Source: Halogranum rubrum (GTDB taxonomy: Archaea; Halobacteriota; Halobacteria; Halobacteriales; Haloferacaceae). Taken from it: DNA of 64,000 bases. This document shows, one piece after another, positions 21,160 to 31,025 of this stretch. Numbering within the stretch: position 1 is the stretch's first letter; each line of letters begins with the position of its first letter. A program made the position numbers and the translations under genes. Below the pieces are notes generated by a model. The model saw nothing but the letters and a program-made list of their open reading frames with translations. It was not told where the DNA came from and searched no databases. The stretch lies in contig NZ_FOTC01000002.1 of NCBI RefSeq assembly GCF_900114455.1, positions 405,012 to 469,011 on the forward strand, written 5' to 3'.

Positions 21160-23100
21160 ATGACCGGACTCTGTGGTGCAGTGCAGACAGAGACACCACA
21201 TCTCGACGAACTCGCAGACGACATCGCGTACAACGGAGACGAGATAGTTGCGCCGTTCGTCACAGACGACGTCGCCGTCGCGAGCGTCCGTCACCCGACT
21301 CGGAGCGAGCAGTCGACAGCCGACTGCGACGACGTCGTCGTCCGACTCTGGGGGTCGATTTGGGGCGACGAGACCGGCGACGGTTACGTGACAGTCGACG
21401 AAAACGCGGCGACGTACTGTGCCGAGCGGTACCGTGCCGTCGGCCTCGACTTCCTCGACGAGTTGAACGGGAACTTCGCCGGCGCGCTCTACGACCCCGA
21501 AGAGGGGGACCTCTCACTCTTCACCGACCGGATGGGGACACGGCCGATTCACTACTATCAGGACGAATCTGCCGAGACGAACGAGTCCGCTCTCGTCTTC
21601 TCGACGAGTCTCCAGTCGCTCCCGCTGCATCCCGCCGTCGACACCGGGTTCGACGAGGACTACCTCGCAGAGTACTTCACGCTCAAACGGCCGTTCGGTC
21701 TCAAGACACCACTCGACGGTGTCGAGAAACTCCATCCGGGAACCGTGATGACCGTCGACGTCGGCACCGGAGCGACGAGCACCGACCGCTACTGGACGCC
21801 ACACTACGACCCTGGGGACTGCTCACGCGAGCAACTCGCCGAGCAACTCGCCGAGACGATGAAGACCGTCGTCGCCGACCGCACGCACGACGAGGCGACC
21901 GAGGGACTGTTGCTCAGCGGTGGCAGCGACTCACGACTCGTCCTCGCGGCGTTCGATGCGCTCGACCAGCCAGTGCGGACCTACCACCTCAACGAGTGGG
22001 AGAACCGCGAGGCGCGAATCGCCGAGCGTGCTGCTAACGTCGTCGGCACCGACCACACACTCCTGAAGCGCGACGAGAGCTACCAATCTCGCTCGCTCGA
22101 GACTGCCCCCCGGTTCTCGAACTTCGTCGGCTACTTCAACCAACACCACGCCGGGGGGTTCGCCGAGACGCTCAGAGCCGAGTGCGAGTACCTGTTCACG
22201 GGCCACTACGGCGACATGCTGTTCAAGGGGAACCACCTTCGGATACCGACGGTCGACTTCGGCGGGGTCGGGTCGTTCGAGTTGCCGGTCGAACGGTCGA
22301 TTCGTGGTCTCGACGACTTCGTGAGCGAGCGAGTCGCGTCGGCACCCGAGTATCTGGCGACGTCGACGGACGTCGAGTCTATCTACTACGACAACGTCGT
22401 CCAGCGGGGTCGGACTGTCGTGGACCACGGCGTCGAGTATCCCTCGATGCGCGAGGCGACCGTCTGTAGTCGCTATCCGCTGACGAACGGGACCTCGCAG
22501 TTCTTCTACTACGCCACCGCACAGATGCTTCCGTCGGGGACGCCGTTCTTGGACAACCGCCTCGTCGACCTCTTTCTCCGGATTCCGGCGAAACATCTGC
22601 TCAGAGGAGACCTCATCAACCGCGCGACGAGACGGCTCTCTCCCGAGTTAGCCGAGATTCCGCACGGACGCGGACTCGTCCCCATCCGGTATCCGTTCGC
22701 CGCGCAGTGGTCGAGCGAACTCGCCCGCGACTTCGTCGGCCGACATCTCCGTTCACCAGGCGACCGCGTCCACCAGTCGGACGGTCCGTGGACCGACCAC
22801 AACGAACTCGTCCGGGACCATCCGTTCGTCCGCGAGACTATCGACGCAAACGAGGAGCGCATCCGGTCGCTTCCGTTCCTCAGTTGGGAAGGCGTCCAAG
22901 CGTGTTACCGAGCCCACGAGCGAGGTGAAAACCGGATGAAGTCGTTGTACACGCTCGTCACGTTCCTCCAGATGCCGCTTCTCGACCGATTGGACCGACT
23001 GGACGCCGTCGAGCGCGACCGGACGTCGCAGCGTGACGTCGACGTCTCAGAGGGTTCGGCGTTCGGCGCGAACTCGGACAGCCGACTCGCGAACGACTGA
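21160..23100 (+). CDS. Asparagine-synthetase-like protein, copy 1
   Basis: This 646-residue protein has the AsnB layout: an N-terminal class II amidotransferase-like domain (1-about 205) and a C-terminal ATP-pyrophosphatase domain. The latter has SGGSDSR at 253-259, the adenylate-binding loop. LNGNFAGALYD and LFTDRMGTRPI match the first domain. The Cys5 in MTGLCGAV is the only candidate nucleophile and would need removal of four residues. The glutamine-binding NGE segment of AsnB is replaced by LWGSIWGD, so the glutaminase may be altered. Haloarchaeal proteins of this kind are not assigned a clear substrate. A close paralogue follows at 23282. Confidence 0.88.
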   Translation: MTGLCGAVQTETPHLDELADDIAYNGDEIVAPFVTDDVAVASVRHPTRSEQSTADCDDVVVRLWGSIWGDETGDGYVTVDENAATYCAERYRAVGLDFLDELNGNFAGALYDPEEGDLSLFTDRMGTRPIHYYQDESAETNESALVFSTSLQSLPLHPAVDTGFDEDYLAEYFTLKRPFGLKTPLDGVEKLHPGTVMTVDVGTGATSTDRYWTPHYDPGDCSREQLAEQLAETMKTVVADRTHDEATEGLLLSGGSDSRLVLAAFDALDQPVRTYHLNEWENREARIAERAANVVGTDHTLLKRDESYQSRSLETAPRFSNFVGYFNQHHAGGFAETLRAECEYLFTGHYGDMLFKGNHLRIPTVDFGGVGSFELPVERSIRGLDDFVSERVASAPEYLATSTDVESIYYDNVVQRGRTVVDHGVEYPSMREATVCSRYPLTNGTSQFFYYATAQMLPSGTPFLDNRLVDLFLRIPAKHLLRGDLINRATRRLSPELAEIPHGRGLVPIRYPFAAQWSSELARDFVGRHLRSPGDRVHQSDGPWTDHNELVRDHPFVRETIDANEERIRSLPFLSWEGVQACYRAHERGENRMKSLYTLVTFLQMPLLDRLDRLDAVERDRTSQRDVDVSEGSAFGANSDSRLAND

Positions 23101-23281: not shown

Positions 23282-25204
23282 ATGACCGGACTCTGTGGTG
23301 CGGTCGGACCCACCGCATCACACCTACGTGAGCTTGCAGACGACTTGGTACACAACGGCGACGAGCGAGTGGACCCAGTCACCCGAGAGCGCGTCGAATT
23401 TGCCAGCGTTCGCCACCCGAAGGCCGTGAGTACGCCGACGACAGCGACGGAAGACGGCGGCGTCGCTGTCCGAGTGTGGGGTGACCTGTGGGGAGACGAA
23501 CCTGAATCGGGCTACAGGACTGTCGAGGGCGACGCGGCGACCTACTGCGCCGAGCGGTATCGGGAAGTCGGACTCGACTTCCTCGACGGCCTGAACGGGA
23601 ACTTCGCGGGAGCACTCTACGACGAGAGCGAGGAGACTGTCACACTGTTCACCGACAGACTGGCCACGCGCCCCATCTACATCTACACCGGCGACGAGGC
23701 AGTCGTCTTCTCGACGAGCATCCAGTCGCTCCCGCTGCATCCCGCCGTCGACACCGACTTCGAAGTCGACTATCTCACCGAGTACTTCGCACTCAAACGA
23801 CCGTTCGGGCTCAAGACGCCGTTGTCGGACGTCGAGATGCTCCATCCGGGGAGTTCGATGACCATCGACGTCGACGACGGGACGACGAGTATCGACCGCT
23901 ACTGGACGCCGCACTACGACCCCGTCGACGCCTCCCGCTCGGAGTTCGCAGCGCGACTCGCCGAGACGATGAAGACCGTCGTCGAAGACCGAACGGACCG
24001 CGAGGAGACGAACGGACTCCTCCTCAGCGGTGGCAGCGACTCTCGACTCCTGTTGGCGGCGTTCGACGCACTCGACATTCCGGTTCGGACCTACCACCTC
24101 AACGAGTGGGAGAACCGCGAGGCAGACATCGCACGGCGTGCCGCCGACGTCGTCGGTGCGGAGTACGAATTCCTCGAACGAGACGAGACGTATCAGGCCC
24201 GCTCGCTCGAATCGTCTCCGAGCCTGGTGAACTTCGACGGCTACTTCAATCAACACCACGCCGGGGGGTTCGCCGAGAAACTCAGATCGGAGTGCGATTA
24301 CCTGTTCACGGGCCACTACGGCGACACGCTGTTCAAGGCCACACACTTCCGGACGCCGAACATCGACCTGGGCGGACTCGGGTCGTTCGAACTACCGGTC
24401 GAACGACCGATTCGAGGGCTCGACGAGTACGTCGCACACCGTGTGAGCGACGCCCCAGAGTATCTCTCGTCGCCGAAGTCCGTCGAAGACGTCTACTACG
24501 ACAACGTCACCCAACGCGGGCGGGCCGTCGTCGACCACGGCGTCGAGTACCCCTCGCTTCGTGATGCGACCGTCTGTAGTCGATACCCCATCTCCAACAG
24601 CACCTCCGGGTTCTTCTACCACGCGACGGCGCAGATGCTCCCGTCGGGCACACCGTTCCTCGACAACCGTCTCATCGACCTCTTCCTCCAGATACCACCG
24701 AAAGACCTCGTTCGTGGAAACCTCATCAACCGAGCGACGACACTCCTGTGTCCGGAACTCGGCGACCTTCCCCACGGTCGGAGTCTCGTCCCGATTCGGT
24801 ATCCGTTCGTCTTCCAGTGGGGGACGGAACTACTCCGAGACTTCGTCGGGCGACACTTCGGTAGGGAAGACGGACAGTCTCACTGGTCGGACGGACCGTG
24901 GACCGACCACGGCGAACTCGTCCGACAACAGCCGTTCATCGGCGAGACTATCGACGCAAACGAGGAGCGTATCCGGTCGCTTCCGTTCCTCAGTTGGGAG
25001 GGCGTCCAGCAGTGCTACGAGGCACACCAGCGTGGCGAAGACCGGATGAAAGACCTGTACACGCTCGTCACGTTCCTCGAAATGCCGCTGCTGGACCGAC
25101 TCGAGGGTATCGAGCCATCGAGCGACGAGATGGACGAAACAGACGAGAGAGACGAGTCGAGCGAGTCACACGAGGCGGAGACGCCGAACGACGTCACACC
25201 CTGA
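23282..25204 (+). CDS. Asparagine-synthetase-like protein, copy 2
   Basis: The 640-residue paralogue of the preceding gene keeps the same start (MTGLCGAV), the same SGGSDSR loop (249-255), the same LKRPFGLKTPL and FNQHHAGGFAE segments and the same IDANEERIRSLPFLSWEGVQ near the C terminus. The differences lie in the first 80 residues and the charged C-terminal tail. The pair arose by tandem duplication. Both keep the amidotransferase Cys5 and lack the NGE motif. The 181-bp gap between them contains a separate promoter-like region, so they may be expressed independently. Confidence 0.88.
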   Translation: MTGLCGAVGPTASHLRELADDLVHNGDERVDPVTRERVEFASVRHPKAVSTPTTATEDGGVAVRVWGDLWGDEPESGYRTVEGDAATYCAERYREVGLDFLDGLNGNFAGALYDESEETVTLFTDRLATRPIYIYTGDEAVVFSTSIQSLPLHPAVDTDFEVDYLTEYFALKRPFGLKTPLSDVEMLHPGSSMTIDVDDGTTSIDRYWTPHYDPVDASRSEFAARLAETMKTVVEDRTDREETNGLLLSGGSDSRLLLAAFDALDIPVRTYHLNEWENREADIARRAADVVGAEYEFLERDETYQARSLESSPSLVNFDGYFNQHHAGGFAEKLRSECDYLFTGHYGDTLFKATHFRTPNIDLGGLGSFELPVERPIRGLDEYVAHRVSDAPEYLSSPKSVEDVYYDNVTQRGRAVVDHGVEYPSLRDATVCSRYPISNSTSGFFYHATAQMLPSGTPFLDNRLIDLFLQIPPKDLVRGNLINRATTLLCPELGDLPHGRSLVPIRYPFVFQWGTELLRDFVGRHFGREDGQSHWSDGPWTDHGELVRQQPFIGETIDANEERIRSLPFLSWEGVQQCYEAHQRGEDRMKDLYTLVTFLEMPLLDRLEGIEPSSDEMDETDERDESSESHEAETPNDVTP

Positions 25205-25268: not shown

Positions 25269-26573
25269 ATGACCGACTGGATTGGCGACACCTTCACGAG
25301 CGACGTCGGCTGGAACCATCTCGAACGCCTCGTCGACATCGGCGACCGGATGGCCGGGTCCGAGGGAGAACAAGAGGCGCTGGAGGCGACGCGCGACGCA
25401 CTCGACGCCGCAGGCGCGAGAGACGCCTACATCGACGAGTTCGACGTACAGGGATGGATTCGCGGCGACAGCACGCTCACCGCCGGTGAGACGACACAGG
25501 ACTGTATCGCTCTGCCGCGCAGTCCCGCCGAGAGCGTCGAAGGGGAACTCGTCGACGTCGGTCACGGTCTACCGGAAGAGTTCGACGAGACGGACATCTC
25601 GGGAAAGGTCGCGCTCGTCTCCTCCAGCGTCCCGGACCACTACCACCGCGGCGTTCACCGTCGCGAGAAGTACTACTACGCCGTCGAGAACGGTGCAGTG
25701 GGATTCGTCTTCGCCAACAACGCCGCAGGTGGGCTACCCATCACGGGCAGCGTCGGCACGGCCGAGGCACCCATCGGCGACGTTCCGGCCGTCGGCGTGA
25801 GCAAGGAGGTCGGCGACCGTCTGAAACGACGTTTCGAGGGCGAGTCGGTCGAACTCGACGTCGACTGTGAGACGCCAGCGGCGACGAGCGGGAACGTCCA
25901 CGCCGAACTCGGTCCCGACACGGAGACCGAACTGCTCGTCACCGGCCACGCAGACGCCCACGACATCTGCGAGGGCGCGACGGACAACGGCACCGGGACG
26001 GCAACCGCAGTCGAACTCGCCCGAACGCTCGCCGCACGCGAAGACGAACTGGAGACGAAAGTTCGGTTCGTCTGTTTCGGGTCCGAAGAAGTCGGCCTCG
26101 TCGGCTCCGAACACGAGTCCGAGCAGGTCGACAGAGACCGCATCAAAGCAGTCGTCAACGTCGACTGTACCGTCCGCGGGCGAACGCTGAAGTTCGACAC
26201 ACACGGGTTCAACACGCTCGAATCGGTCGCCCAGACCGTCGCCGACCGCTTTGGACATCCGGTCAGCACGAACCCAAAACTCGTCCCGCACAGCGACCAC
26301 TGGCCGTTCGTCCAGTGGGGCGTGCCTGGTTACATGGTCTCGGCCGAGAAAGACACGAAGGGTCGCGGGTGGGCACACACCGCCGCCGACACGCTCGACA
26401 AACTGGAGAAGCGGACGTTCCGCGAACAGGCGATTCTGCTGACCGAACTGGTCGTCGAACTCGCTGGCGACGACGTCGAGACGACGCACAAGTCTGCGGA
26501 GACGATGGCCGAGACGCTCGAAGACGAGGACCTCGCAGAAGGGATGCGCGTCACGGGCGACTGGCCGTACTAA
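25269..26573 (+). CDS. M28 family zinc peptidase
   Basis: The 434-residue protein is a zinc-dependent exopeptidase of the M28 (aminopeptidase/carboxypeptidase) type, with a PA domain inserted between the N-terminal part and the catalytic part. The metal ligands are seen: HADAHDICEGATDNGTGTA (first His and the bridging Asp), CFGSEEVGLVGSE (catalytic Glu and ligand Glu), VNVDCTV (Asp) and LVPHSDHWPF (His). No signal peptide is present, so it should act in the cytoplasm. The substrate is likely small peptides. Confidence 0.92.
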   Translation: MTDWIGDTFTSDVGWNHLERLVDIGDRMAGSEGEQEALEATRDALDAAGARDAYIDEFDVQGWIRGDSTLTAGETTQDCIALPRSPAESVEGELVDVGHGLPEEFDETDISGKVALVSSSVPDHYHRGVHRREKYYYAVENGAVGFVFANNAAGGLPITGSVGTAEAPIGDVPAVGVSKEVGDRLKRRFEGESVELDVDCETPAATSGNVHAELGPDTETELLVTGHADAHDICEGATDNGTGTATAVELARTLAAREDELETKVRFVCFGSEEVGLVGSEHESEQVDRDRIKAVVNVDCTVRGRTLKFDTHGFNTLESVAQTVADRFGHPVSTNPKLVPHSDHWPFVQWGVPGYMVSAEKDTKGRGWAHTAADTLDKLEKRTFREQAILLTELVVELAGDDVETTHKSAETMAETLEDEDLAEGMRVTGDWPY

Positions 26574-26620: not shown

Positions 26621-26650
26621 ATGAACGACCGAGGGGAGGAGTCACCGTGA
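26621..26650 (+). CDS. Possible 9-residue leader peptide overlapping the next start
   Basis: ATG at 26621 opens a 9-codon frame (MNDRGEESP) whose TGA (26648-26650) overlaps the GTG start at 26647. It could couple translation to the next gene, or be chance. Confidence 0.2.
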   Translation: MNDRGEESP

Positions 26651-27336
26651 ACGTCGCCGTAGTCGGCGACGACGCACTCGCCGAGACGGTCGACGCCGCG
26701 GGGGCGACGCTCACCGACGTCGAGACGGCGTCACTCGTCGTCACCGTCGGCGAAGAGCAGTTCGTCGACGTTGCTCGTGGCGGACCTGCGGTCCCCATTC
26801 TCCCGGTCGAGACGGAGTTTGGACCGTTCTCGCTCGCTCGTGACGTCGTCGAAGCCGCCGTAGAGACGATTCTCGACGGAGAGGGGACGGCCGTCTCGCA
26901 TCCCGTTCTCTCGGTTACCATCGACGGCACGACGGTCGCCCGAGGTGTCCTCGACGTGATGCTCGTGACGAGTGAACCCGCGCGCATCTCCGAGTACGAG
27001 GTGACTTTCGGCGCGGAACGGGCGGGTAACTTCCGTGCGGACGGCGTCGTCGCGTCGACGCCGCTCGGGACACGAGGCTACGCGCACGCGGCCGGTGGTC
27101 CCATCCTCGAACCGGGAACCGGTCTCGCAGTCGTCCCCATCTCGCCGTTCTCGACGCAGTCGGAGACGTGGGTCGCCCCCGGGGACGTCACGCTAACCGT
27201 CGTACGCGACGACGGACCGGTCGCACTGGTCGTCGACGGCCGGACCGTTCAGTCGGTCGACCCCCACCAATCGGTTCGGTTGTCCGTCGTCGACCACGTC
27301 GACCTGTGGCGAGTGCCGTCGATAGGGTCGAGATAG
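26647..27336 (+). CDS. NAD-kinase-like protein lacking the GGDG motif
   Basis: The 229-residue protein resembles the archaeal ATP-NAD kinase fold. The C-terminal part keeps STPLGTRGYAHAAGGPILEPGT, the equivalent of the NAD-binding STPTGSTAY segment, followed by VPISPFSTQSETWV. The N-terminal part, however, has VVTVGEEQFVDVARGG where active enzymes have GGDGTxL, so the phosphate-donor site is not recognisable. Loss of that motif suggests the protein no longer phosphorylates NAD, or does so differently. The GTG start at 26647 follows GGGGAGG and overlaps a possible mini-ORF. Confidence 0.75.
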   Translation: MNVAVVGDDALAETVDAAGATLTDVETASLVVTVGEEQFVDVARGGPAVPILPVETEFGPFSLARDVVEAAVETILDGEGTAVSHPVLSVTIDGTTVARGVLDVMLVTSEPARISEYEVTFGAERAGNFRADGVVASTPLGTRGYAHAAGGPILEPGTGLAVVPISPFSTQSETWVAPGDVTLTVVRDDGPVALVVDGRTVQSVDPHQSVRLSVVDHVDLWRVPSIGSR

Positions 27337-27385: not shown

Positions 27386-27826
27386 ATGCAACCGCTACAG
27401 TTCCTCGTCCCCATCGACGCGCTCGCAGAGGTCGAGGGTCTGCTGAAGTACGCCATCCTGGGGCTGGTGCTCGTCAACATGGTCACGCGAATCCTCGCGC
27501 ACAGCAAACAACGAAAGCAAGTCGACGACGACGACAGCAACCTCTCTCGGTGGCTGCCGCACTCGGTGGTGTCGATTCTGCTCCTCCTCGCCTCGTTCGC
27601 GTTCATGATCGTCGAACCGCACGGTGGGATGGTCATGTCGGTGCTCGTCCTCGGGATGTTCGTCGCGGACTTCTTCGAGTTCGAAGCGCGACAGGTCGAA
27701 GCGCGCAACGGCCTCGACTTCGAGCGCCCGAAGGCCGCCATCACGGCGTCTGTCATCGTCCTGCTCTACGCCGCCTTCCAGAGTCTCTTCTTCCTCGTGA
27801 AGGACTACTGGAACCTCGTCATCTGA
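27386..27826 (+). CDS. Conserved haloarchaeal membrane protein (DUF7313-type)
   Basis: The 146-residue protein has four hydrophobic segments, at about residues 20-38, 60-80, 85-104 and 118-138, separated by a charged cytosolic loop (HSKQRKQVDDDDSN). It resembles a haloarchaeal family that I associate with the cytochrome b cluster encoded next to it on the other strand, probably DUF7313. Its function is unknown. Placement beside the respiratory genes suggests an accessory subunit or assembly role. Confidence 0.72.
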   Translation: MQPLQFLVPIDALAEVEGLLKYAILGLVLVNMVTRILAHSKQRKQVDDDDSNLSRWLPHSVVSILLLLASFAFMIVEPHGGMVMSVLVLGMFVADFFEFEARQVEARNGLDFERPKAAITASVIVLLYAAFQSLFFLVKDYWNLVI

Positions 27827-28337: not shown

Positions 28338-28610
28338 TCAGTTCGAGCGGCGGTTTCGGTACGCCGTCCGTGCCTCGCGTCCAGCGGGGATGAGCACCCA
28401 GAAGGTGAGTGCGCCCAGGAGGGCAAACCACAGCAACACGTCGATCATACCGATGGCGAGGGCGTCGAATAGGTTCGCCGGTTCGGGGGGTGCTGCGATG
28501 AGTTGGTTCGTGCTCCCGAAGGATTCCGTCTGGTACCACGAGGCCAGTACCATCCACGCGAGACCGGCGCCCGTGAAGATACCGAGCCCCTTGATGAACT
28601 CGTCAGCCAT
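28338..28610 (-). CDS. Small membrane protein of the cytochrome b cluster (DUF7314-type)
   Basis: A 90-residue protein with two hydrophobic segments, at about residues 5-25 (GLGIFTGAGLAWMVLASWYQ) and 42-64 (IGMIDVLLWFALLGALTFWV). The last gene of the operon running from 31613. It overlaps the upstream gene by 8 bp, so translation is likely coupled. It resembles a small haloarchaeal family found next to cytochrome b. No cofactor ligands are visible; an accessory subunit role is inferred from position. Confidence 0.75.
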   Translation of the reverse strand: MADEFIKGLGIFTGAGLAWMVLASWYQTESFGSTNQLIAAPPEPANLFDALAIGMIDVLLWFALLGALTFWVLIPAGREARTAYRNRRSN

Positions 28611-29040
28611 TATCTGATTCTTCGTTGGAGTCCTCTTGAGACTTTCCCATTCCGCGGGCACGGAAGCGCGTGCCGACGATGTAGACGCCAGCACCGAATC
28701 CGATGACTGCCAGTCCGAGAAACGCGAGTATCGCGGTCAACACGCCGTCGGCGATGCCGATGCCCACGGCGGCGAGGACGCCGGTGATGGCCCGTCGGAG
28801 GAAGCTGATCGACAACGTCGCCGCGTCGAGCAGCACGAACCCGACGACGACAGAGACGACGGCGATGAGCGTCGAGAAGACGGTGATCGTCTTGTAGAGT
28901 CGCATCGGGACGACGATGTCGCGGCCGCCGCTACGACCGTCGCCATCGCCACTATCGCCGGTTCCGTCCGTGCGCTGCTCGTCATCACGGCTGTTCGCAC
29001 CGCTGTCTGCCGTACGCTCGGCTGTGTCGGTATCAGACAT
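28603..29040 (-). CDS. Small membrane protein of the cytochrome b cluster (DUF7315-type)
   Basis: The 145-residue protein has a disordered acidic N terminus of about 40 residues (DTDTAERTADSGANSRDDEQ), then two hydrophobic helices at about 50-72 and 95-122. It lies 19 bp downstream of the cytochrome b C-terminal gene and overlaps the next gene. It has no recognisable redox motif. Probably a structural subunit specific to the haloarchaeal complex, inferred from conserved position. Confidence 0.75.
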   Translation of the reverse strand: MSDTDTAERTADSGANSRDDEQRTDGTGDSGDGDGRSGGRDIVVPMRLYKTITVFSTLIAVVSVVVGFVLLDAATLSISFLRRAITGVLAAVGIGIADGVLTAILAFLGLAVIGFGAGVYIVGTRFRARGMGKSQEDSNEESDNG

Positions 29041-29059
29041 AGGGAGAGAAAGAGAGCCG

Positions 29060-29827
29060 TTACCGCGGCGGACGAAGCCGGTAGTAGCGGCGGTTGAGGT
29101 CGTACATGTACCCTTCGCGCATCGTCTTGAGCACCGCGTAGGTGATGATACCGATGACGATCGGTAAGAGGAACGTCAGGTCGAACAGCAGGTCAACGTT
29201 CATCGGCATCAGGTTCTTGACTGCCAGCAGACTGAGCGTGAGCGCCAAGACGACACCACCAGCGCCGACGGCCGCCCAGAACGGCTGCTCGACGGGTCGG
29301 CGTGCGCTCCCCTTGTTGAGGAAGGGAACGATGGCGATGAAGCCGACGACGACGACGTTCGCGAGCACACCGTACGTCCGGTCGGCCATCAGCTTGGACC
29401 CGCCGAGGATGGCGAGTTCGGGGTTCAGCGGGTTCAGCTTCAGCAGGCCGAACGACCAGTAGAGATACCAGTCGGGGAGGATGATAGCCGGCGTACTACT
29501 CGGGTTCGCGGGTTCGCCGATGTGCGGCGGCATCGTCGCCGACAGGAAGAAGATGATACCCACGAAGAACGCGGCGATAGAGAGGTTTCGAACCGTCTCG
29601 TGCGGCCACGTCGGGAAGCCGAGTACGTCACGCTCGACGTAGTCGGACTCCATTCGGAGGTCTTGGTCTTCTCGGCGAGCACGTTCGAAGTACTCGTAGG
29701 TGAGCCGTGAGAGGCCCGTCTTTCGTTCCTTGCGCTCGAGCCACGTCGGCGTCTCGTCGTCCGGTGCGACGAGTCCGGTGCCGTCGGTGCGAATCTCTTC
29801 GTCTTCGGTTGGTTGTTCGTCGGTCAT
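29060..29827 (-). CDS. petD: Cytochrome b C-terminal part (subunit IV-like) with PDWY Qo motif
   Basis: The 255-residue protein carries the last membrane helices of a split cytochrome b, equal to PetD/subunit IV of b6f complexes. The Qo-site motif reads PDWY (118-121) in AIILPDWYLYWSFGLLKL, in place of the usual PEWY. Several further hydrophobic helices follow (about residues 145-165, 180-205 and 215-240). The N-terminal 70 residues are acidic and soluble. It follows the b6-like gene with a 4-bp gap, so the two are co-translated. The PDWY form is known from lineages using low-potential quinones. Confidence 0.93.
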   Translation of the reverse strand: MTDEQPTEDEEIRTDGTGLVAPDDETPTWLERKERKTGLSRLTYEYFERARREDQDLRMESDYVERDVLGFPTWPHETVRNLSIAAFFVGIIFFLSATMPPHIGEPANPSSTPAIILPDWYLYWSFGLLKLNPLNPELAILGGSKLMADRTYGVLANVVVVGFIAIVPFLNKGSARRPVEQPFWAAVGAGGVVLALTLSLLAVKNLMPMNVDLLFDLTFLLPIVIGIITYAVLKTMREGYMYDLNRRYYRLRPPR

Positions 29828-29831
29828 GGTC

Positions 29832-30632
29832 TTAGTGGGGTTCGGCGATGCCCTGCACCCACACGATACCGATGTGAATCGCGATGAGCGTCGTCACCAC
29901 GAAGGGTAGCAGGAACACGTGGATGATGTACATCCGTTGTAGTGTTGCTTGACTCAACGTGAAGCCCCCGAACAGGAGCTGTGCGGCCCACTCGCCGGCG
30001 AGCGGAATCGAGAGTGACATCTCGACACCGATCTGTCCGGCCCAGAAGGCCAGTTGGTCCCACGGGAGCAGGTAACCGGTGTACCCGAACACCATCGTCA
30101 GGCTGATGAGGATGATGCCGAGAATCCAGTTCAGTTCACGTGGCTCCTTGTACGACCCGGTGAAGTACACGCGGAGCATGTGTAAGAACACTGCGGCGAC
30201 CATCACTTGGGCCGACCAGCGGTGGATGCTGCGGAGCATGAATCCGAACTGGAGGTCCTGCATGATGAACGCGATACTGTTGTACGCGACGGTCGCCTCT
30301 TCGGGATTCCCCTGTGCGGGGGAGTAGTAGAACCCGAGCAACGCGCCACTCACGGCGGCGACGATGTAGGACAGCGTCGAGAACAACCCGAGCGTGTACA
30401 GCGGGTACCAGTACCAGAACTTGTTGTCGAGGTTGTACTGTTCGGTGTGACTCTTCGGCATCTGGAGGTTGACCCGGTAGTAGAGGGTCTCCATAAGCTC
30501 CAGATAGTCGACGATTCGGAGTCGCTTGTCGAGCCAGATGAGGACCGTCAGGAACGTCGTCTCGACGGGGGTCAGATCCTTCGTCTTCATCCAGCCCTTG
30601 TGGTCGTAGTCGTCTTTCTTCTCTAAACTCAT
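29832..30632 (-). CDS. petB: Cytochrome b N-terminal part (b6-like)
   Basis: The 266-residue protein holds the four helices that carry both b haems. The ligand pairs are His137/His151 (IHRWSAQVMVAAVFLHM, 13 residues between) and His238/His253 (IIHVFLLPFVVTTLIAIHI, 14 between). The 13/14 spacing is that of the b6f type rather than the mitochondrial 13/13. GYTGYLLPWDQ (183-193) is the conserved loop before the third helix. It sits between a small membrane subunit and the subunit IV-like gene in one operon. No Rieske protein is encoded nearby; a membrane-bound halocyanin is. Confidence 0.95.
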   Translation of the reverse strand: MSLEKKDDYDHKGWMKTKDLTPVETTFLTVLIWLDKRLRIVDYLELMETLYYRVNLQMPKSHTEQYNLDNKFWYWYPLYTLGLFSTLSYIVAAVSGALLGFYYSPAQGNPEEATVAYNSIAFIMQDLQFGFMLRSIHRWSAQVMVAAVFLHMLRVYFTGSYKEPRELNWILGIILISLTMVFGYTGYLLPWDQLAFWAGQIGVEMSLSIPLAGEWAAQLLFGGFTLSQATLQRMYIIHVFLLPFVVTTLIAIHIGIVWVQGIAEPH

Positions 30633-30635
30633 TGA

Positions 30636-31025
30636 TTACCTCTTGTAGTAGGGGTAGACCGCGCGCTTGACGGTGTCCCACGCGTCGGAGCCACCGAGTT
30701 GCACGCCGTCGACGTCCTCACTCTTGACGTAGAGGTCCTCCCACTTGCGCCGACGTTTCTTCACGATCATCACGTCGGGGAGGAACTCCTTGCGGTACAG
30801 TGCGAGGATGAACGCCAGGTCGATGAAGATCACCGCGAGGATGGCGCCGAGGAACATGTTCCCGGTGTCGGTCAGCGCCCATCCAGTGACGAGACCGTAC
30901 GTGAACAGGAACACGAAGACGACTTCGATAATCGTCAGGAGGACGATGGCGATGGCCGCCGCCGTACTCTCGCGTGCCGGTTCGTATCGGTGAATGTCCC
31001 CGTAGGTGCTGCCTGTGGAACTCAT
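30636..31025 (-). CDS. Small membrane protein of the cytochrome b cluster (DUF7318-type)
   Basis: The 129-residue protein has two hydrophobic helices (about 20-45 and 57-76) and a basic C-terminal cytosolic part containing IVKKRRRKWEDLYV. Its start codon abuts the halocyanin stop codon and its own stop is 3 bp before the cytochrome b start. The tight packing argues for a stoichiometric subunit. I relate it to a haloarchaeal family (DUF7318-type) without established function. Confidence 0.8.
   Translation of the reverse strand: MSSTGSTYGDIHRYEPARESTAAAIAIVLLTIIEVVFVFLFTYGLVTGWALTDTGNMFLGAILAVIFIDLAFILALYRKEFLPDVMIVKKRRRKWEDLYVKSEDVDGVQLGGSDAWDTVKRAVYPYYKR

Follow-up and report, generated by a model that had tools for sequence, protein, structure and literature searches.

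The NAD kinases described in the literature cited here are homo-oligomers. No NAD kinase heteromer was present among the literature matches listed, and we know of no case in which this enzyme has a pseudoenzyme as a subunit. In other hetero-oligomers such pseudoenzyme subunits do occur: a dead paralogue stands beside an active one, with complementary residue loss, and the haloarchaeal pair described below resembles this situation. In NAD kinases, the nicotinamide site is formed across the subunit interface (PMC8553519). According to that account, the vital residues of Mycobacterium tuberculosis Ppnk are Asp-85, Asn-159, Glu-160, Thr-200 and Tyr-202, the Asp of the GGDG motif acting as the proton acceptor. 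Asp-189 of the same enzyme comes from the adjacent subunit and lies around the nicotinamide; a second position on the adjacent subunit, also around the nicotinamide, is Arg-175 in Escherichia coli and Gly-187 in M. tuberculosis (PMC8553519).

In Haloferax volcanii, two paralogs with 25% identity, HVO_2363 and HVO_0837, are each described as a probable NAD kinase (PMC8305020). HVO_0837 is named nadK2, and petD and petB are HVO_0841 and HVO_0842 (PMC8305020). Both paralogs also figure among genes annotated as polyphosphate kinases (PMC3986227). For HVO_0837, the sections of PMC8305020 on these genes leave the phosphate donor alone open and mention no loss of GGDG, which is where the protein presented here differs from its published description.

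The window (the whole stretch of 64,000 nucleotides of Halogranum rubrum that was analysed) carries on its forward strand an open frame with a GTG start, at 26647..27336, which encodes a NAD-kinase-like protein of 229 amino acids, hereafter NKL. Upstream on the same strand lies an M28-family peptidase with a PA domain (25269..26573; PF04389, 125.8 bits), and downstream, again on the forward strand, a member of the DUF7313 family (27386..27826; PF23995, 219 bits). On the reverse strand, 28338..31025 holds DUF7314, DUF7315, petD, petB and a small ORF (30636-31025). DUF7314 and DUF7315 were assigned by Pfam and the others are open reading frames, petB and petD being named from a reading of their translations and the comparison with HVO_0841/0842. 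Further upstream, two similar large ORFs in tandem (21160-23100 and 23282-25204), which we take to be asparagine-synthase-type proteins, recur upstream of the M28 gene in a congener (G043).

The gene order around NKL is old. DUF7313 was found in the fetched NKL flank at 39/39 loci of the window's family and at 75/80 titled loci, petB at 30/39 and 58/80, and the M28 peptidase at 25/39 and 59/80, the two sets of flanks sharing genomes. At the five titled loci without DUF7313, the pet genes are missing from the flank too. Six Haloferax loci (L095, L102, L106, L119, L121 and L124) show the order M28, NKL, DUF7313, DUF7314, DUF7315, petD, petB, which matches that of HVO_0837, petD (HVO_0841) and petB (HVO_0842) as far as these are given in PMC8305020. 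NKL, which stands beside DUF7313 and petBD, is assigned by gene order to the haloarchaeal nadK2 group (HVO_0837). DUF7313 and petB, for their part, go together throughout 50 hand-picked class genomes, 32 of which have both and 18 neither, even when the two genes are not neighbours. One possible role for DUF7313 is that of a partner, or else an assembly factor, of the cytochrome bc complex in haloarchaea.

The sole Pfam match of NKL above cut-off is NAD_kinase_C (PF20143; 60.2 bits vs. a cut-off of 23.7), and the N-terminal NAD_kinase model of Pfam, PF01513, does not match. In the orthologue alignment, sequence variation is greatest in the N-terminal half. NKL is predicted to be a complete, compact NAD-kinase fold, because the AF2 model (40-row alignment of relatives; mean pLDDT 94.5, pTM 0.90) superposes over the whole chain on solved NAD kinases. 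Over the model range 1-228, the 50 NAD-kinase chains listed gave Z scores of 20.1-23.4. The highest was that of Pseudomonas aeruginosa 7qvs (Z 23.4, rmsd 2.8 over 227 residues); 1y3h reached 22.6 and Archaeoglobus fulgidus 1suw 21.9. With M. tuberculosis Ppnk, A. fulgidus Afnk and P. aeruginosa NADK, the protein shares this modelled whole-chain fold, the Tyr of conserved region II and the Asp provided in trans, and with the E. coli enzyme an Arg two residues before that Asp. The gene is under purifying selection (dN/dS 0.32 and 0.35, two congeners).

The catalytic loop, in contrast to canonical NAD kinases, is degenerate. Alignments place VVTVGEEQFVDVARGG (residues 31-46; 26737..26784, forward strand) at the canonical GGDGT site, and when the genome's own canonical NAD kinase is aligned with NKL, VVTVGEEQFVDVARG stands opposite VVSIGGDGTFLYAARG. 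Residues were counted in 109 distinct NKL sequences: the window, 39 loci of its family and 69 titled-record loci. None has GGDG at the catalytic site, and none has Gly at both flanking positions. Asp occupies the column of the GGDG Asp (the Asp-85 site of M. tuberculosis) in 10/109, in none of them as part of GGDG. The string GGDG occurs literally just once in the set (L060), and there in a different loop. Since the motif is absent across all 109 orthologue sequences, its loss is neither chance nor a local mutation. Together with the PF20143 match, these counts bear out the initial annotation, which had read 26647-27336 as a NAD-kinase homologue lacking GGDG, and the alignment of haloarchaeal orthologues extends the loss to all 109 sequences. 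The short NE/D motif has changed as well: at its site stands LD (residues 102-103; 26950..26955, forward strand), where the Asn is lost and the acid kept. Across the family, this site (Asn-159/Glu-160 of M. tuberculosis) has Asn in 0/109 and Asp or Glu in 107/109. NKL therefore appears unable to catalyse, judging from its sequence, as it is without the catalytic residues.

The ligand-binding side is only partly preserved. Arg130-Ala-Asp132 (27034..27042, forward strand) matches the positions with which a neighbouring subunit reaches the nicotinamide in known NAD kinases; Arg130, at the site of E. coli Arg-175, and Asp132, at that of M. tuberculosis Asp-189, are both invariant (109/109 each). 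Conserved region II, TPLGTRGYAHA (residues 138-148; 27058..27090, forward strand), is partly kept: STPLGTRGYAHAAGG retains TP.G and the Tyr, and the stacking Tyr145 (Tyr-202 of M. tuberculosis) is found in 109/109. Hence, of the three M. tuberculosis residues of this region, Asp-189 and Tyr-202 have invariant counterparts, and Thr-200 has a Thr in only 11/109. Leu or Ala replaces Thr at residue 140, residue 144 is Gly in 104/109 vs. Ala in nadK1 (34/34) and in 33 other archaeal kinases, and the Ser-148 site keeps Ser in 5/109. A last segment, VPISPF (residues 163-168; 27133..27150, forward strand), is kept from archaeal NAD kinases and is rewritten in nadK1. Compared with a canonical NAD kinase, NKL is thus without GGDG and without the Asn of NE/D, and its Thr-200 and Ser sites are mostly replaced. 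The claim of the initial annotation that the NAD-binding half is kept is half right, because the cross-interface positions and the Tyr are retained and several cis positions (Thr, Ala and Ser) are not.

A canonical NAD kinase elsewhere in the genome, for which the initial annotation had suggested a search, was found at G000:C6:1134111-1134956. This gene, nadK1, has GGDGTF, NE and TPTGSTAY, and is not adjacent to NKL. The absence of any other NAD kinase gene, which the initial annotation had named as speaking against its proposal, can thus not be held against it, because nadK1 is present. The genome has two further, more distant GGDG proteins (L001 and L003), presumably of the COG3199/AcoX kind. 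L001 was rejected as the canonical kinase: it scores above nadK1 with PF01513 (85.6 vs. 54.5 bits), but below it with PF20143 (59.6 vs. 79.4) and with the NCBIfam NAD-kinase models (23.4 vs. 147.6). L003, without any match to the NCBIfam NAD-kinase models, was rejected too. It is possible that both are further kinases besides nadK1.

Both proteins were compared with 33 archaeal NAD kinases, which are the best 30 PF20143 matches from other classes of the phylum plus three single-copy kinases from within the class. Positions with the same residue in at least 85% of these references were taken as conserved (74 positions), and as kept when retained in at least half of the rows of a set. The NKL set comprised the 109 sequences; the nadK1 set (n = 34) comprised the 30 best matches to the nadK1 of the window's genome and four diverged ones, so its counts lean to the window's family. 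Of the 74 conserved positions, 25 are kept in nadK1 only, 9 in NKL only, 19 in both and 21 in neither. GGDG contributes three of its four residues to the nadK1-only positions, which also include N102, E103 (Asp in NKL), T140, T143, A144 and S148, along with other N-domain and C-terminal positions. Those kept only in NKL are T108, P111, A112, R130, A149, V163, P164, A166 and P167, A166 being marginal (55% vs. 38%); they are parts of a TSRPAK segment, the trans Arg and a VPLAP segment, all rewritten in nadK1. The interface residues of human NADK (PMC12052686) seem to fall within such a rewritten segment, and they are not counted as evidence. At the Arg130 site, nadK1 has His in 28/34, and at the trans Asp site it has Asp in 32/34. 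This His is no proof of a defect, because the R175H variant of the E. coli enzyme is reported active (PMC8553519). What is new here is that nadK1 and NKL have, by these alignments, decayed in different places.

In a tree of 67 rows, NKL is a long branch, placed with the other archaeal and the single-copy kinases on one side of a branch with support 97/95, and nadK1 sits with bacterial, fusion and small kinases. A grouping of nadK1 with the single-copy kinases alone was rejected by the AU test (p 0.024). Groupings of NKL with the single-copy kinases (p 0.42), of NKL with nadK1 (p 0.185) and of nadK1 with all archaeal kinases (p 0.32) were not. A recent duplication within the class as the source of the pair is not favoured, as the tree splits the two, but the p of 0.185 leaves NKL plus nadK1 unrejected. 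The data are compatible with NKL as the old archaeal enzyme and nadK1 as an import. The translated single NAD kinases, five from one family (f18) and two from others (six found), are complete, with GGDG and NE; these seven add nothing more on the origin.

NKL is nearly universal in the class. Its family profile matched 390/391 class genomes at E<=1e-5, and the E values are two-peaked: 374 genomes match at 1e-32 or below, 16 only at values above 1e-15, and the remaining one not at all. Four of the 374 strong matches come from two other families of the order (G181, G307, G354 and G418); in the three inspected, G181, G307 and G354, the match is one canonical NAD kinase each, with GGDG, NE and region II. 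About 370/391 class genomes carry NKL, which in G413 is in two pieces. In the 194 class genomes searched for both genes, nadK1 was found at E<=1e-25 in 190, among them G181, where a single gene matches both the nadK1 and the NKL queries. The four without nadK1 (G098, G196, G242 and G285) are exactly the four without NKL. Of the 13 other genomes lacking NKL, 12 are also without nadK1 at E<=1e-25. In all, 17 of the 391 genomes are without NKL, 16 of which are without nadK1 too, and the double losses fall in genera g19, g42, g45, g61, g75 and g85, in four families. NKL hence co-occurs with nadK1 across the phylogeny with one exception, within a nadK1 search that took in all but 180 of the 391 genomes. 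This exception is G404, a draft of 150 contigs (91% complete) with nadK1 but no NKL; petB and DUF7313 were not found in it either. Strongly diverged NKL copies occur in G216 and G232 (L242 and L246) and in G171 (L243). The nadK1 of these genomes has diverged as well, and G216 and G232 also hold the fusion kinase described below; perhaps such diverged pairs are on their way to loss.

A fusion of NAD kinase and inositol phosphatase is present in 15/16 double-loss genomes vs. 53/374 genomes with a strong NKL-profile match. Its query matched 77 of the 391 genomes at 1e-40, nine of them via the phosphatase half only, which leaves 68 with the fusion. In double-loss genomes, the fusions are open frames of 564 to 695 codons and the query matched over both halves. 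G342, the sixteenth genome with the double loss, yielded no fusion at 1e-40 and holds only a small, distant GGDG protein. The nadK1-NKL pair has thus been lost almost only beside another kinase, because 15 of the 16 double-loss genomes hold the fusion. This co-loss of NKL and nadK1, with the fusion in 15/16, is also new here.

For two of the fusions (L203:1321-3027 and L235:1230-2951), Pfam places a NAD kinase at the N-terminus and an inositol monophosphatase at the C-terminus. MJ0917 is reportedly a fusion of NADP phosphatase and NAD kinase, and the haloarchaeal fusion joins the same kinds of domain (PF00459 and NAD kinase). The domain order is reversed relative to the PRK14076 model, with the kinase first, and the haloarchaeal fusion, unlike the MJ0917 type, goes with loss of NKL, of which it is not a close relative. 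In the six fusions aligned, neither the region II Tyr nor the trans Asp stands where it normally does. Some haloarchaea lacking NKL also have distant NAD-kinase relatives that form a family of their own, GGDG proteins with TPFGxTGY (L233:2158-2967, L234, L236, L240 and L241; open frames of 256-334 codons).

The reading that we favour, tentatively, is that NKL is a catalytically dead partner of nadK1 with a NAD-kinase fold, most likely joined with it in a mixed oligomer. NKL may be a helper subunit and not a kinase of its own. We infer a physical complex, a contribution in trans and any regulation as follows. The nadK1 chain would contribute GGDG, Asn-Glu and the TPTGSTAY loop to a shared site; NKL, from the other side of the interface, would complete it with the Arg-x-Asp pair and further segments rewritten in nadK1. 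The mirror site, made of the NKL loop and the nadK1 half, would be non-catalytic and may be an NAD(P)-responsive regulatory site. Complementary retention is the pattern that a mixed oligomer would leave, each chain keeping the half that is used, although it is no proof of one. Several observations count against such a partnership. nadK1 keeps the trans Asp in 32/34 and might work alone, and co-loss would also be expected of two redundant kinases both replaced by the fusion. G404 has nadK1 without NKL, and G342 shows the double loss without a fusion. Furthermore, the two genes are not adjacent, and the steady link of NKL to the cytochrome bc cluster lies outside the model. Distance correlation was dropped as support for the pairing because it is unspecific: r, taken over the 16 genomes that have all seven families, is 0.73 for nadK1-NKL and 0.90 for nadK1-DUF7313.

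That NKL instead binds NAD(P) on its own, as a sensor or regulator, perhaps for the cytochrome bc cluster and without touching nadK1, seems doubtful. Its fold with an invariant stacking Tyr and the frequent DUF7313 and petB in its flanks agree with such a role, but the NAD-contacting Thr, Ala and Ser positions are mostly replaced and the absence of NKL tracks nadK1, not petB. Among the 50 hand-picked genomes, NKL occurs without petB and DUF7313 in G174, G180, G192, G216, G232 and G250; conversely, G098, G099, G100, G296, G366, G370 and G389 have petB and DUF7313 and no NKL. As the genes each occur apart in these 50 genomes, a specific partner of the cytochrome bc cluster was set aside as the main reading. 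A free-standing sensor alone predicts neither the co-loss with nadK1 nor the retention of adjacent-subunit residues, and for both reasons the partner subunit fits better; sensing through the degenerate site of a nadK1-NKL complex is possible. It is unlikely that the fold now serves as an enzyme or binder for another small molecule, the co-loss reflecting a pathway link. The family-specific change in the ligand loop (Gly144, and Leu or Ala for Thr at 140) would suit a new ligand, but the alignment has no conserved, catalytic-looking cluster in place of GGDG, and among the positions that are conserved are those crossing the dimer interface of kinases. From the residues present, it is very unlikely that NKL is a working NAD kinase whose catalytic loop has changed, and that it and nadK1 are both dispensable beside the fusion. 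The H. volcanii gene is annotated as a probable NAD kinase (PMC8305020), an acid is kept at residue 103 in nearly all sequences, and co-loss with nadK1 fits redundancy. Against this, the GGDG Asp and the NE/D Asn, both counted as vital in M. tuberculosis Ppnk (PMC8553519), are missing, and the N-terminal half varies more than the rest of the protein.

If the partnership of NKL with nadK1 holds, the pair would be, as far as known, the first NAD kinase heteromer to include a pseudokinase, and its two genes would be lost jointly beside a fusion kinase. More speculatively, most haloarchaea could possess a hybrid two-gene NAD kinase, in which nadK1, possibly foreign (from the bacterial side), makes NADP with the resident archaeal chain, devoid of its own catalytic loop, as an obligate partner that completes the active site in trans. 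The missing GGDG matters more than the initial annotation stated, because the gene is near-universal in the class and is printed as a NAD kinase. The nadK2 annotation needs correction, since NKL appears unable to catalyse. NAD kinase makes NADP, and the near-universal second "NAD kinase" gene of haloarchaea appears to be non-catalytic; this raises the possibility of a NAD kinase made of two different subunits, testable with two genes in a genetically tractable archaeon.
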